Both the position numbers and the translations under genes were made by a program. Below, in pieces: positions 44,136 to 62,100 of a stretch of DNA of 64,000 nt. Below the pieces are notes generated by a model. That model made no database searches. It had not been told where the DNA came from and saw only the letters and a list, made by a program, of their open reading frames with translations. The first letter of the stretch is position 1, and every line of letters begins with the position of its first letter. The stretch comes from Zeimonas arvi (GTDB taxonomy: Bacteria; Pseudomonadota; Gammaproteobacteria; Burkholderiales; Burkholderiaceae_E). The stretch is taken from positions 682,001-746,000 of the forward strand of contig NZ_VDUY01000001.1 of assembly GCF_008039575.1 (NCBI RefSeq). Direction: 5' to 3'.

Positions 44136-44153
44136 CCCGCGAGCCGAACAACC

Positions 44154-44361
44154 GCTGTGGAAGAGATCGCGCAGGCCCTGCAGGCCCGCGCGGCGCCGAA
44201 GGTGTATCGCCCCGGAAACTCTCAGGCAAAAGGACTTCAGCGGTTCGGCGCTCTGGAGAGAAGCTGCATCCGGTCGTGACCGGGCCGCGGCTCGCCGAAG
44301 GAAACAGGTGGCGCGGACCACTCCGCGCCGCTGAATGTCTCAGGCAAACGGACAGAGGGGG
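44154..44361 (+). promoter_or_regulatory. Tandem glycine riboswitch (two aptamers)
   Basis: The two aptamers carry the conserved glycine-aptamer segments. The first has GTGGAAGAGATCGCG, GCGCCGAAGGTGTATCGCC and GGAAACTCTCAGGCAAAAGG, and ends near 44243. The second has CTCTGGAGAGAAGCTGC, CTCGCCGAAGGAAACAGGTGG and GAATGTCTCAGGCAAACGGAC, and ends near 44361. The short linker between them is typical of cooperative tandem glycine riboswitches. They lie upstream of gcvH-gcvP-gcvT, which they are known to control in many bacteria, usually turning expression on when glycine is plentiful. Confidence 0.93.
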
Positions 44362-57860: not shown

Positions 57861-58925
57861 TCATTCGTCGACGGCAAGCCTGCGCTGACGAACGGCATCG
57901 GCCAGGTGCTCGAGAATCGAGACCGTGTCCTCCCAGCCGATGCAGCCGTCGGTGATGCTCTGGCCGTAGGTCAGCGCCTTGCCGGGCACCAGGTCCTGGC
58001 GGCCGGCGTTCAGGTGGCTCTCGACCATCACCCCGAAGATCCGCATGTCGCCGGCGGCGAGCTGCGTGGCGACGTCCTTCAGCACCGGGATCTGGTTCTC
58101 GGGCTTCTTCTGGCTGTTGCCGTGGCTGGCGTCGATCATCAGCCGGCAGGCCAGCGCGGCGGCCGCGGCCTCCTTGCAGGCGGCATCGACACTCGCCGCG
58201 TCGTAGTTCGGCGCCTTGCCGCCGCGCAGGATCATGTGACAGTCCTCGTTGCCGTTGGTCGACACGATGGCCGAGTGTCCGCCCTTGGTCACCGACAGGA
58301 AATGGTGGGGCTGCGAGGCCGCCTTGATGGCGTCGAGCGCGATCTTCAGGTTGCCGTCGGTGCCGTTCTTGAAGCCCACCGGGCAGGACAGCCCCGAGGC
58401 GAGTTCGCGATGCACCTGCGACTCGGTGGTGCGCGCACCGATGGCGCCCCAGGCGATCAGGTCGGCGATGTACTGCGGGGTGATCATGTCGAGGAACTCG
58501 GTGCCGCAGGGCAGCCCCATCTCGTTGATGTCCAGCAGCAGCGAGCGGGCGGTGCGCAGCCCCTTGTTGATGTTGAAGGTGTCGTCGAGATCCGGGTCGT
58601 TGATCAACCCCTTCCAGCCCACCGTGGTGCGCGGCTTCTCGAAATAGACCCGCATCACGATCTCGAGGTCGTCCTTCAGGCGTTCGCGGACCGCCACCAG
58701 GCGCTGCGCGTACTCGAGCGCCGCCTTCGAGTCGTGGATCGAGCAGGGCCCCACGACGACCAGCAGCCGGTCGTCCATCGAATGCAGGATGCGGTGGGTC
58801 GCCTGACGCGAAGCGTAGGTCGTGGCCGCCGCGCGATCGCCGATCGGGTACTCGCGAAGCAGGTGGGAGGGCGGCGCGAGCTCCTTGATCTCGCGGATCC
58901 GGACATCATCGGTGGTGACGGTCAT
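57861..58925 (-). CDS. aroG: 3-deoxy-7-phosphoheptulonate synthase (class I DAHP synthase)
   Basis: AroG condenses PEP and erythrose-4-phosphate in the first step of aromatic amino-acid synthesis. The 354-aa protein shows REIKELAPPSHLLREYPI, VVVGPCSIHDSKAALEYA, MRVYFEKPRTTVGWKGLINDP, GARTTESQVHRELASGLSCPVGFKNGTDG and DASHGNSQKKPENQ. This is the AroF/G/H type, normally feedback-inhibited by an aromatic amino acid. I chose ATG 58925; the frame is open upstream only because it reads through the attenuator hairpin. It is preceded by a Phe-rich leader peptide and terminator, so transcription attenuation by tRNA-Phe charging is predicted. Confidence 0.96.
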   Translation of the reverse strand: MTVTTDDVRIREIKELAPPSHLLREYPIGDRAAATTYASRQATHRILHSMDDRLLVVVGPCSIHDSKAALEYAQRLVAVRERLKDDLEIVMRVYFEKPRTTVGWKGLINDPDLDDTFNINKGLRTARSLLLDINEMGLPCGTEFLDMITPQYIADLIAWGAIGARTTESQVHRELASGLSCPVGFKNGTDGNLKIALDAIKAASQPHHFLSVTKGGHSAIVSTNGNEDCHMILRGGKAPNYDAASVDAACKEAAAAALACRLMIDASHGNSQKKPENQIPVLKDVATQLAAGDMRIFGVMVESHLNAGRQDLVPGKALTYGQSITDGCIGWEDTVSILEHLADAVRQRRLAVDE

Positions 58926-58983
58926 GACGGGCCTTCGTTGACGGCTTGGTTGATCGGGGTCTTCGGATCCGGCGAGACGGTGC

Positions 58984-59012
58984 AAAAAAAAACCGCCGGG
59001 CTCGCCGGCGGT
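58984..59012 (-). terminator. Intrinsic terminator (attenuator) in the aroG leader
   Basis: On the minus strand ACCGCCGG (59012-59005) pairs perfectly with CCGGCGGT (58999-58992) around CGAGC, and eight further T follow (58991-58984). It lies 30 bases after the leader-peptide stop and 58 bases before the aroG ATG. Upstream, CGGCGG (59071-59066) can pair with CCGCCG of the terminator's first arm (59011-59006), forming the competing antiterminator. Confidence 0.9.
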
Positions 59013-59041
59013 CTTCATCGGATTCGGTTCAGTCCTGCTGT

Positions 59042-59125
59042 CTACGAACGCGCTCCCGACTCGTCCCGCCGCGGGCGGAAAAAGCCGAAAAAATAAAAAA
59101 AGTAGAACGCGATGCGGTGCAACAT
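59042..59125 (-). CDS. aroG leader peptide (Phe-rich attenuator peptide)
   Basis: ATG 59125 opens a 27-codon frame ending in TAG at 59044-59042. Residues 7-16 are FYFFYFFGFF: seven Phe and two Tyr in ten residues, in a genome where such AT-rich codons are rare. The last Phe codon (59080-59078) runs straight into CCGCC (59078-59074), which pairs with GGCGG (59070-59066). A ribosome stalled for charged tRNA-Phe would free GGCGG to form the antiterminator. There is no Shine-Dalgarno sequence; the promoter's -10 box ends nine bases before the ATG, so translation may be leaderless. The layout is that of pheA-type leader peptides, here in front of aroG. Confidence 0.9.
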   Translation of the reverse strand: MLHRIAFYFFYFFGFFRPRRDESGARS

Positions 59126-59134
59126 GACGAATCG

Positions 59135-59163
59135 AGTGTATGCCTTAGCCTGCCGCCGCGCAA
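59135..59163 (-). promoter_or_regulatory. Candidate promoter for the aroG leader
   Basis: On the minus strand TTGCGC (59163-59158) and TACACT (59140-59135) are separated by 17 bases. TACACT matches four of six -10 positions; the -35 keeps only TTG. The predicted start, around 59128, is a few bases from the leader-peptide ATG. It begins 20 bases after the stop of the DUF748 gene. Confidence 0.5.
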
Positions 59164-59182
59164 GTCGGGGCGCGCCAGTCGG

Positions 59183-62100
59183 TCACTTCAGGGTCATCTC
59201 GACGCCGACCGCCGGCCTGTCCTCGGCCTCCCCGGTCGACGTCGGCGCGGTCACGAACAGGCGCCCCGGGTCGACCTTGCCCGCCCCGGCCAGCCAGTCC
59301 TTGGCGGCCTGCGCCCGCCGGTTGGCCAGCTCGCGCAAGGCGCCGTCGGGAAGCGCCACCGCGGCGACCAGCTCCTGCTGCATCCTGTAGGCCGGCGGTC
59401 GGTCTTTCTCGGCCGGGGCCGGCACGCGCCCCATCAGCCAGGCCTGCGCCAGCAGCACGGGCCGCTGGGTCTCGGTGATCGGCTGCTTCTCGTCGGTGCC
59501 GTCCAGGGCCTTGCGGATGCGCTTGAGCCGCGCCTCGAGCTGCGCCTGCTGCATCGCCATCCGGTCGACGGCAGTGGCGCGCCCGGCGATGTCGAGCTTC
59601 AGGCCCGGCCGCTCGGCCAGCGCCTTGGCCAGCGAGCCCAGCCGCTCGCGCGCCTTGTCGCCGAGCGCCACGTCGGCAGGCGCGAAGTCCAGCGTGGACA
59701 GCTCCTCGCCCGCGCCGCCCACCAGCCCGGCGATCAGCGAGAACGGCGCAGTGACCGCCTTGACGATCAGGTTGCCGATGATGCGCAGCACGATGCCGGC
59801 CACGCTGAACTGCGGGTCGTCGAGCGAGCCGCTGATCGGCAGCTGCACGTCGATGACGCCGTTGCGGTCCTTGAGCAGCGACACCGCGAACAGCACCGGC
59901 AGCTTCAGCGCGTCGGGGCTGTCGACCGGCTCGCCGAAGCTCAGCTGGTCGAGCACGATCTTGTTCTGGGCGGTGAGCTGGCCGGACTCGACCCGGTACT
60001 CGACGCTGGCCGACAGCTTGCCCTTCTGGATGCCGTAGCCGACGTACTTGCCCGAATAGGGCGAGAGCGCCGGCAGGTCGATGTCGTGGGCGTCGGCGCG
60101 CACGTCGAGAAAGAGCGGCTCGCCGATCGGATCGATGCGGCCGGCGATCTTCACCGAGCCGGTGTTGTCGATGCGCCCGTCGAGCGACAGCTCGGCCGGC
60201 TGGCCGGCGCGCATCTCGCCGACCGACCCCCGCAGGCCGGTCAGGTTGGCCGAGTAGTTGGGCTTGATGAAGTAGTCGCTGAAATCGATGTTGCTGTCGG
60301 CCACCTGGATGCGGCCGATGCGCAGCGGCGGCGGATCGGTCTTGGGCAGCGCAGCGCTGCGCGCGGGCGCGGCATCGGCCCCGCCCATCGGCGGACCGTC
60401 GTCGGCGCGCGGCGCGTCGCCGGCGGCTGCCGTGCCGCCTGCCGCCGCGGCGCCGGGCGCATCGCCCCCGGGCGCCCCGCCGCCCTCGCGGTCGACCACG
60501 TCTTGCAGGTTGAAGCGGCCGTTGGGCTGGATGACCAGCCGGGACCGCAAGCCGTCGATCTCGATGTCGCCGAGATCGACGAACAAGGGCGAAAGCGTCA
60601 CCCTGGTGGACGAGAGGCGGAGCGACTTCCAGCCGAGCAGGTCTGCCGGGTCGGCGCCCTCCCGGACCATCTCGGCGGGGATGGCGGCCGCGGCCTCGCC
60701 CTTGAGCCGCGCATTCAGGTCGGCCACCGAGACAGCGCCCTGCCACTGGCCGCGCGGCGCGCCATCGGCGCCGAAGTCGAGCTGAAGCTTGCCGTCGGCC
60801 GACAAGGCGCCCGAGACCAGATTCGCGTTGACCGCGGGCGGCAGCCAGGCCTGGGCCGCCGGAATCGGCAGCGCGCGGGCCTGCAGCGCCAGCGCGAGCG
60901 CGCCCGTGGTCGGCACCACGGTTCCGCGGGCGGACAGCCGCCCGCCCTTGTCGACGCGCACCGCGACCGACACCGGCACGGGCGAAGTCCCGTCGGTGGC
61001 AAGGCCCTGCGCCTCGATCGCAATGCCGCCCAGGCGAAGCGGCGGGTGCCGCTGGCCACCCGCCGGCGCATAGGCGAGCTCGACCTCGGCGCCCGTGACC
61101 GCAAGCTTGCCGATCGTGGCCTGCCAGGCGGCATCGTCGCGCCCGTCCCGAGCGGCGCCCCTGCCCTGCCTGCCGGCGTCGGCCGAACCTGCCGAGGCGG
61201 ACCTCCCGGCTTCGCCCGCCCCACCGTCGCGCCACCAGCCGGCCGCATCGAGCGCGCCGCGGGCATCGCGCCTGAGCGCCAGCTTGCCGCCGTCGAGCAG
61301 CGCCGAGTCGAGGGTCACCCGGCGCTTGCCCGGGTCCACGCCGACGCCCTGGACCTCGAGCTTGCCGATGCGCGCCACCTCGCGGGCGGCGTCGGCCAGG
61401 ACCAGCGAATCCACGCGCAGGCGCCCGTCGTTCAGCTGCCAGCCGATCGCCTCGGCCTGGCTTGCGCCCGCCTCCGGCTTCGCGCCCGCGTTCCCACCCC
61501 CTTCCGTCGCCTGGCCGGACCGGACCCGGTAACGCGTCGAAACCGCCAGCTTGCCCTCGCGCACTTTCAGCGCGAGCGCCGGGCCGGCGAGCCAGGCCCA
61601 GCGTGCGACCGAAATCTCGTCGAGCGAAGCCTCGCCGTCCATCGCGAACGGCGCGATACTGAGCTTCGCGTTCGCGGCCAGGACCTCGCCGTCGGCGGTC
61701 CGGCCCGAAAACTTCAGCTGCGCCGGCTGCTGCTGCGGCAGCCCGAAGCCGTCCAGCGCGATGTCGAAGGGCGCAAGCGCGACCCGCAGCGGCTGCGGCG
61801 TGAAGGCCTGGTCGTCGAAGGCCAGCCGCCCATGGTCGATGGCGATCGTGGCGATTGACCAGGCGAAGCCGCTCCCGTCGGCGGCGGTCGCGCCCTGTGC
61901 GGCCCGCCGCTCGAGCGCCGAGAGGACCGGGTCGAGGAAACGCGCCTCGCCGCTGCGCCGCCCGATCGCGATCTCCGGCCGCGACACCGCCAGCCGGTCG
62001 ATCGACAGCCGCGACGCGATCAGGTCGAAGTCGATGCCGGTGGCCTCGGCCGCGGGCAGCTTCAGCAGCGGCCGGTCGTCGGGCTGCCGCAGCTCCACGC

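Follow-up and report, generated by a model that had tools for sequence, protein, structure and literature searches.

The DNA upstream of aroG, the gene for a DAHP synthase, with which aromatic amino acid synthesis begins, in Zeimonas arvi very probably carries a ribosome-mediated transcription attenuator that would sense charged tRNA-Phe, and possibly tRNA-Tyr, and control aroG, as judged from sequence comparison and modelled RNA folds. The region was analyzed within a window of 64,000 nt (NZ_VDUY01000001.1, positions 682,001 to 746,000), and all positions given below refer to this window. The parts of the element are present, they are conserved together with aroG, the 1:2 and 2:3 pairings covary, and modelled ribosome stalling frees arm 2. 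With the conservation, the observation moved from a plausible reading to a strong one, and comparison of related leaders supports the core claim of an attenuator with mutually exclusive 1:2, 2:3 and 3:4 pairings. Attenuation by amino acid leader peptides is a textbook mechanism. Three features of its class were found here: a short ORF rich in codons for the end product, an intrinsic terminator between the leader ORF and aroG, and an antiterminator that is exclusive with the terminator and backed by covariation.

The leader and its surroundings in the window

The initial annotation had described a promoter-like pair, a 27-codon ORF with the run FYFFYFFGFF, four GC segments and a T run, and every coordinate it gave was correct (Table 1). 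Folding of the leader RNA (58984–59134) yielded -60.6 kcal/mol (z -3.15), and none of 200 shuffles was equally stable. The fold contained the 3:4 terminator plus the 1:2 hairpin. A generic consensus scan of positions 58700–59400 returned no promoter and no terminator, which speaks against these two elements.

Table 1. Features of the aroG leader and its target gene in the window.
Feature	Position	Strand	Basis
-35-like TTGCGC	59158..59163	-	Sequence; TTGC-starting hexamers 16–19 nt before the -10-like site recur upstream of related leaders
-10-like TACACT, 17-nt spacer from TTGCGC, 9 nt before the leader ATG	59135..59140	-	Sequence
Putative transcription start, about 3 nt before the ATG	59126..59130	-	Usual -10 to +1 spacing
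Leader ORF MLHRIAFYFFYFFGFFRPRRDESGARS, 27 codons, ATG at 59125, stop TAG 59044–59042	59042..59125	-	Sequence/translation
Control codons, residues 7–16 FYFFYFFGFF (7 Phe, 2 Tyr, 1 Gly)	59078..59107	-	Translation
Helix 1:2, outer 5' arm	59104..59111	-	Ribosome-free fold; own-versus-swapped pairing energy
Helix 1:2, outer 3' arm	59049..59056	-	Ribosome-free fold; own-versus-swapped pairing energy
Helix 1:2, inner 5' arm; its tip CCGCC (59074–59078) is segment 1 of the initial annotation	59074..59087	-	Fold
Helix 1:2, inner 3' arm; includes the arm 2 core GGCGG (59066–59070)	59057..59070	-	Fold; core found in each of the three frames in related leaders
Antiterminator extension, arm 2 side GTCGGG	59055..59060	-	Nascent fold with stalled ribosome (pairs with 59017–59022); swap tests
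Antiterminator extension, linker side TCCGAT	59017..59022	-	Nascent fold with stalled ribosome; swap tests
Arm 3 ACCGCCGG, antiterminator 3' side and terminator 5' side	59005..59012	-	Sequence; CCGCC invariant in the 44-sequence alignment
Arm 4 CCGGCGGT, terminator 3' side	58992..58999	-	Sequence, fold
Terminator T run, eight further T	58984..58991	-	Sequence
aroG, DAHP synthase, 354 aa	57861..58925	-	Pfam, NCBIfam, solved relatives

The leader region lies between a DUF748 gene on the same strand, ending at 59183, and aroG. The downstream gene belongs to Pfam DAHP_synth_1 and scored 587 bits against the NCBIfam AroG equivalog NF006723 (cut-off 568). Its product also exceeded the threshold set for the Trp-sensitive AroH model (511.6; cut-off 463). 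Since the AroG and AroH cut-offs were both passed, the model scores do not fix the feedback type of this DAHP synthase. Among proteins of solved structure, its best relatives are DAHP synthases, several of them titled Phe-regulated or Phe-sensitive, and the alignment to solved AroG chains starts at most 3 residues from the 58925 start. An in-frame ATG in the linker (59016–59018, minus strand) lengthens the mechanical aroG ORF to 385 aa, which then runs across the terminator, and a gene caller could place the aroG start there. A recurrent ACCGAAT stretch was observed in the linker before arm 3, both in the window (59021–59028, minus strand) and in relatives. The genome encodes a second DAHP synthase that is 60% identical, at which the covariance model described below found no attenuator element. 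Among the matches listed, the nearest named locus was that of a Lautropia metagenome assembly, with an AroG that is 99% identical. Elsewhere in the window, a pair of neighbouring glycine riboswitch aptamers (Rfam RF00504; 52.6 and 37.3 bits) is located at 44148–44357 on the plus strand.

With regard to the promoter, 42 non-redundant upstream regions (of 62) were examined. In 29 of them, a TANNNT ended 6–10 nt ahead of the leader start codon, and the other 25 distances up to 29 nt held eight TANNNT sites in all. In a second set, TANNNT was found 6–10 nt before the start codon in 40 of 82 cases, and the remaining 35 distances up to 39 nt accounted for 32 sites. About a third to a half of the leaders are without TANNNT at 6–10 nt. 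A Shine-Dalgarno-like stretch was present in 3 of the 42 leader upstream regions. The usual gap between a -10 box and the transcription start is six bases, and a -10 box 6–10 nt from the ATG would, with this spacing, make transcription begin on the ATG itself or a few bases upstream, so that the leader mRNA may be close to leaderless.

Distribution of the leader and its control codons

Conservation was assessed in the best 80 AroG loci of at least 573 candidates. A single script searched for an ORF of 12–45 codons with at least four F/Y/W in eight residues, followed by a hairpin with a T run. Leader ORF and terminator were found together in 62 of the 80 loci. With the script unchanged, random windows taken from these loci gave both in 1 of 3269 cases, and dinucleotide shuffles in 5 of 1240. 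Thus, the leader peptide and competing arms, on which the initial annotation had built its reading, are conserved in relatives. Named carriers include strains of Bordetella, Achromobacter, Pigmentiphaga, Burkholderia, Massilia, Parvibium and Quisquiliibacterium. Neither leader ORF nor terminator was found in 17 of the 80 loci, which counts against the attenuator reading. A peptide without hairpin occurred in none of the 80, and in one locus (L007) the terminator was present and the contig end cuts off the region before the peptide start.

A covariance model was built from an alignment (A1) of 44 leaders, i.e., the 46 distinct peptides minus L013 and L049, with the window replacing L003. It recovered the held-out leaders L013, L049 and L007, and none of the 17 element-negative loci fell below E 0.1 (L052 reached 0.15). 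Within the order Burkholderiales, 112 of 399 genomes were matched (114 matches), and under strict filters no match was obtained in the other 287. A DAHP synthase gene adjoined 107 of the 114 matches. In 104 of these 107 second-set loci, an aromatic ORF was present at most 450 nt upstream of the DAHP synthase gene, in 93 of them with a terminator by the script rule; for 11 loci the script failed to detect the terminator, and for three it detected neither part. The second leader set excludes first-set peptides and is not fully independent, having been found with the first-set model, and its counts include one peptide (L168) that looks like a wrong ORF.

Three of the remaining seven matches, all from one genus, are aromatic leaders with a terminator before an unknown ORF, and the other four look like chance. 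In the three loci (L182, L190 and L192; bases about 300–450 in leader orientation), an aromatic leader, e.g., MNTFSAVFNAYFYWYRSSRRLQGASLH, and a terminator precede an ORF of about 200 aa. The ORF of L190, the one scanned of the three, had no Pfam or NCBIfam match. The ORF behind these leaders is perhaps an aromatic-responsive gene of unassigned function. At the level of the wider class, the model matched 8 of 370 genomes, three of which belong to the order, including that of the window itself. Four of the five class genomes outside the order have aromatic leaders before an AroG relative (L198, L199, L200 and L201). Three of these leader ends (PKPLAEEGLRSP, PKPPAEEGVRAF) are similar to leader ends from Bordetella and Achromobacter, a sequence likeness that suggests transfer or old ancestry.

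Phe was present in all 46 distinct peptides, Tyr in 45 and Trp in 14 (229, 92 and 16 of 1203 residues, respectively). The 91 peptides of the second set contained Phe in 91, Tyr in 84 and Trp in 41 cases. Together, F, Y and W accounted for 28.0% of the leader residues as compared to 4.5% of the AroG residues of the 46 loci, and the ratio of TTT to TTC was 167:62 in the leaders versus 71:240 in AroG of the same loci (Fisher P 6e-32). The occurrence of Phe in all leaders, the enrichment of F/Y/W and the preference for TTT in leaders point to Phe as the foremost amino acid read by the leader. Near-constant Tyr does not by itself show a response to Tyr. For the comparable C. glutamicum aroF leader with Phe-Tyr-Phe, Tyr availability was reported in excerpts of PMC11802643 to be without effect, and this weakens the Tyr part of the reading.

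Pairing, folding and the proposed switch

The arm 2 core GGCGG was exact in 59 of 62 leaders and occurred in all three ORF frames. Among 85 new peptides, it was found in frames 2, 0 and 1 in 58, 14 and 5 cases, respectively, and was absent in eight. Since arm 2 occurs in all three peptide reading frames, it is kept as RNA and not as peptide. At the first pair beyond the 2:3 core, the 41 distinct arm sets showed T-A in 22, C-G in 14, T-G in one and no pair in four cases. At the same flanking position in the second set (n = 64), T-A was observed in 28 and C-G in 13, with at least 19 unpaired.

Own partners were then compared with partners swapped between loci. As swapping takes no account of relatedness, the following counts are not formal probabilities: own partners paired better than swapped ones for the full 2:3 helix (-25.79 versus a swapped mean of -21.97; 0 of 5000; 36 of 62 leaders), for the 2:3 extension without the core (-10.73 versus -8.83; 0 of 5000; 36 of 62 leaders) and for the outer 1:2 helix (-12.63 versus a swapped mean of -10.97 kcal/mol; 1 of 5000; 35 of 48 distinct arm pairs). 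The ranks of the own partners in the outer helix spanned 0 to 33 among 34 swaps, which counts against clean support for 1:2. In the second set (64 non-redundant of 86, six without recognisable core having been removed first), 0 of 5000 was obtained for 2:3, for its extension and for the outer 1:2 helix alike, and a reversed-linker control gave 4617 of 5000, relatedness again being ignored. Pairing of the linker with the bases that follow arm 2 was likewise stronger within a locus than between loci. Thus, the competing pairings proposed in the initial annotation covary in relatives: for 1:2 and 2:3, both sequence sets showed stronger pairing within a locus than after swapping.

The extent of both helices had to be revised. 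Segment 1 (CCGCC) forms just the tip of a longer helix, which also joins the first leader codons to the stretch before the stop codon. CCGCC:GGCGG as the entire 1:2 helix was replaced by this longer helix on the basis of the folds and the outer-helix swap test. The short 2:3 core likewise belongs to a longer antiterminator that reaches into the linker before arm 3.

We infer how the leader would be transcribed, translated and terminated, in which order it would fold, and how it would respond to amino acids. RNA polymerase would start just before the leader ATG, and a ribosome would follow on the short ORF. If aminoacyl-tRNA is ample, the ribosome would clear the Phe/Tyr run and depart. Helix 1:2 would then hold arm 2, arms 3 and 4 would form the terminator, and transcription would end at about 58984. 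If Phe, and perhaps Tyr, is short, the ribosome would stall in the run and block helix 1:2. Under these conditions, arm 2 and the bases after it would base-pair to the linker plus arm 3 while arm 4 has yet to be synthesized, the terminator would not form in time, and aroG would be transcribed.

With a ribosome modelled on each aromatic codon and the RNA made through arm 3, 2:3 was obtained at 316 of 333 positions; 11 of the others were without 2:3, and at six the footprint covered arm 2. With both flanks free and the ribosome mid-run, 2:3 formed in 44 of 46 leaders. The complete leader without ribosome folded into 3:4 in all 46. For the window, the fold before arm 4 was made gave 1:2 if the RNA was free and 2:3 if the ribosome was stalled, as the model requires. 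Ribosome-free RNA through arm 3 preferred 2:3 in 32 of 46 leaders, which did not include the window or L003. With a ribosome on the stop codon, 2:3 persisted in 33 of 46, which counts against a simple switch. In the complete leader with a stalled ribosome, 3:4 was obtained again in 37 of 46, and the complete leader of the window gave 3:4 at every tested stall that leaves arm 2 free. Equilibrium folds had been expected to separate the starved from the fed state, and they do not. Because they fail to split the states cleanly, the switch must rest on the order and timing of folding, and kinetics would have to decide in many leaders.

Alternative explanations and known attenuators

The window hairpin lies after the same-strand DUF748 gene, and it could serve as the terminator of that gene only, with the aromatic ORF arising by chance from a T-rich stretch. 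This is barely credible, given that peptide and hairpin track aroG and that a DUF748 relative was found upstream of the element in only 4 of 56 loci. Four other scanned loci have four different upstream genes, namely TldD, M81/MlrC, a divergent E1 dehydrogenase (L041) and a chemotaxis receptor. The variability of the upstream genes rests on the DUF748 scan of 56 loci and the Pfam scan of these four, since clustering by longest open frame is noisy owing to antisense frames that stay open in GC-rich DNA, and its strand counts are unusable except for L041, a real gene by Pfam. The frequency of both parts at AroG loci relative to random windows and the covariation of arm 2 with arm 3 also speak against a mere upstream terminator.

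The sensor could instead be a site in the leader that binds a metabolite or protein, riboswitch-like or as a repressor site, with the ORF being incidental. The leader is indeed structured, and E. coli DAHP synthase genes are under repressors according to excerpts of PMC11802643. Such a sensor is nevertheless highly improbable, as no Rfam family reached its gathering score at the window leader or in 20 related loci, and as the best-kept features are the aromatic-rich ORF and the pairing arms, which occur in all three frames. Binding of a metabolite or protein may be an added layer on the attenuator. It is just as improbable that the leader peptide acts as a TnaC-like nascent-chain arrest sensor of the free aromatic amino acid and not as a codon counter: arrest peptides have fixed residues, and the run varies in Phe/Tyr/Trp and in length among relatives. 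The precedent for this sensor is TnaC, on which free Trp stalls ribosomes, as described in excerpts of PMC8429421.

As a probable ribosome-mediated attenuator, the aroG leader resembles E. coli pheL-pheA, with a Phe-rich leader ORF, a long 1:2 hairpin that includes the Phe codons, and a GC terminator. In the same kind of fold test, E. coli pheL gave 1:2 when free and 2:3 when stalled, with arm 2 released. The aroG leader differs from pheL in its target, which is aroG and not pheA/pheST, in its Tyr and sometimes Trp codons, in the location of arm 2, which lies inside the ORF and not after the stop codon, and in the -10 box close to the ATG. The window leader scored 18.1 bits against Rfam RF01859 Phe_leader (gathering score 55), and the aroG covariance model found E. 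coli pheL at its exact place with 29.1 bits (E 1.5e-4 in 86,554 bases). The two leaders may be distantly related or may have converged.

For C. glutamicum aroR-aroF (Neshat et al. 2014), excerpts of PMC11802643 and PMC4046766 describe a Phe-Tyr-Phe leader before a DAHP synthase gene and an enhanced transcription of aroF under Phe limitation. By description alone, this system is like the aroG leader in that an aromatic leader peptide stands ahead of a DAHP synthase gene. C. glutamicum is an actinobacterium, and three aromatic residues are named there, as compared to nine of ten in the window run. Sinorhizobium meliloti trpL (rnTrpL/peTrpL) is unlike the aroG leader in its Trp codons and its target trpE(G), according to excerpts of PMC7298713. 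According to the same source, transcription of trpL begins at the ATG of its leader ORF, whereas for the aroG leader we infer a similar start, and trans action of leader RNA and peptide is described for trpL.

In the open literature searched, no description of an attenuator of betaproteobacterial aroG was found, nor anything on an aroG leader peptide in Bordetella; comparative attenuation surveys of about 2004, for instance, may contain an earlier report. On its sequence features, the leader looks like a widespread, uncatalogued Burkholderiales RNA family of a known attenuator kind. It is unlikely that one family, placed on the first enzyme common to the pathway, reads the tRNAs for Phe, Tyr and, in many lineages, Trp from a leaderless ORF and that the terminated RNA or the peptide also acts in trans, as described for rhizobial trpL. 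If this all-three-tRNA reading were true, the leaderless ORF would allow the first ribosome to enter as soon as the RNA emerges.

The proposed attenuator would give Burkholderiales a clear mechanism for controlling entry into aromatic amino acid synthesis, and 107 of the 399 Burkholderiales genomes sampled carry the element next to a DAHP synthase gene. Its mixed Phe/Tyr/Trp codons raise the question of how an attenuator weighs several amino acids, and the ATG-proximal promoter raises that of how leaderless translation is coupled to transcription. Beside C. glutamicum, Burkholderiales would be the second lineage with a Phe/Tyr leader on DAHP synthase.
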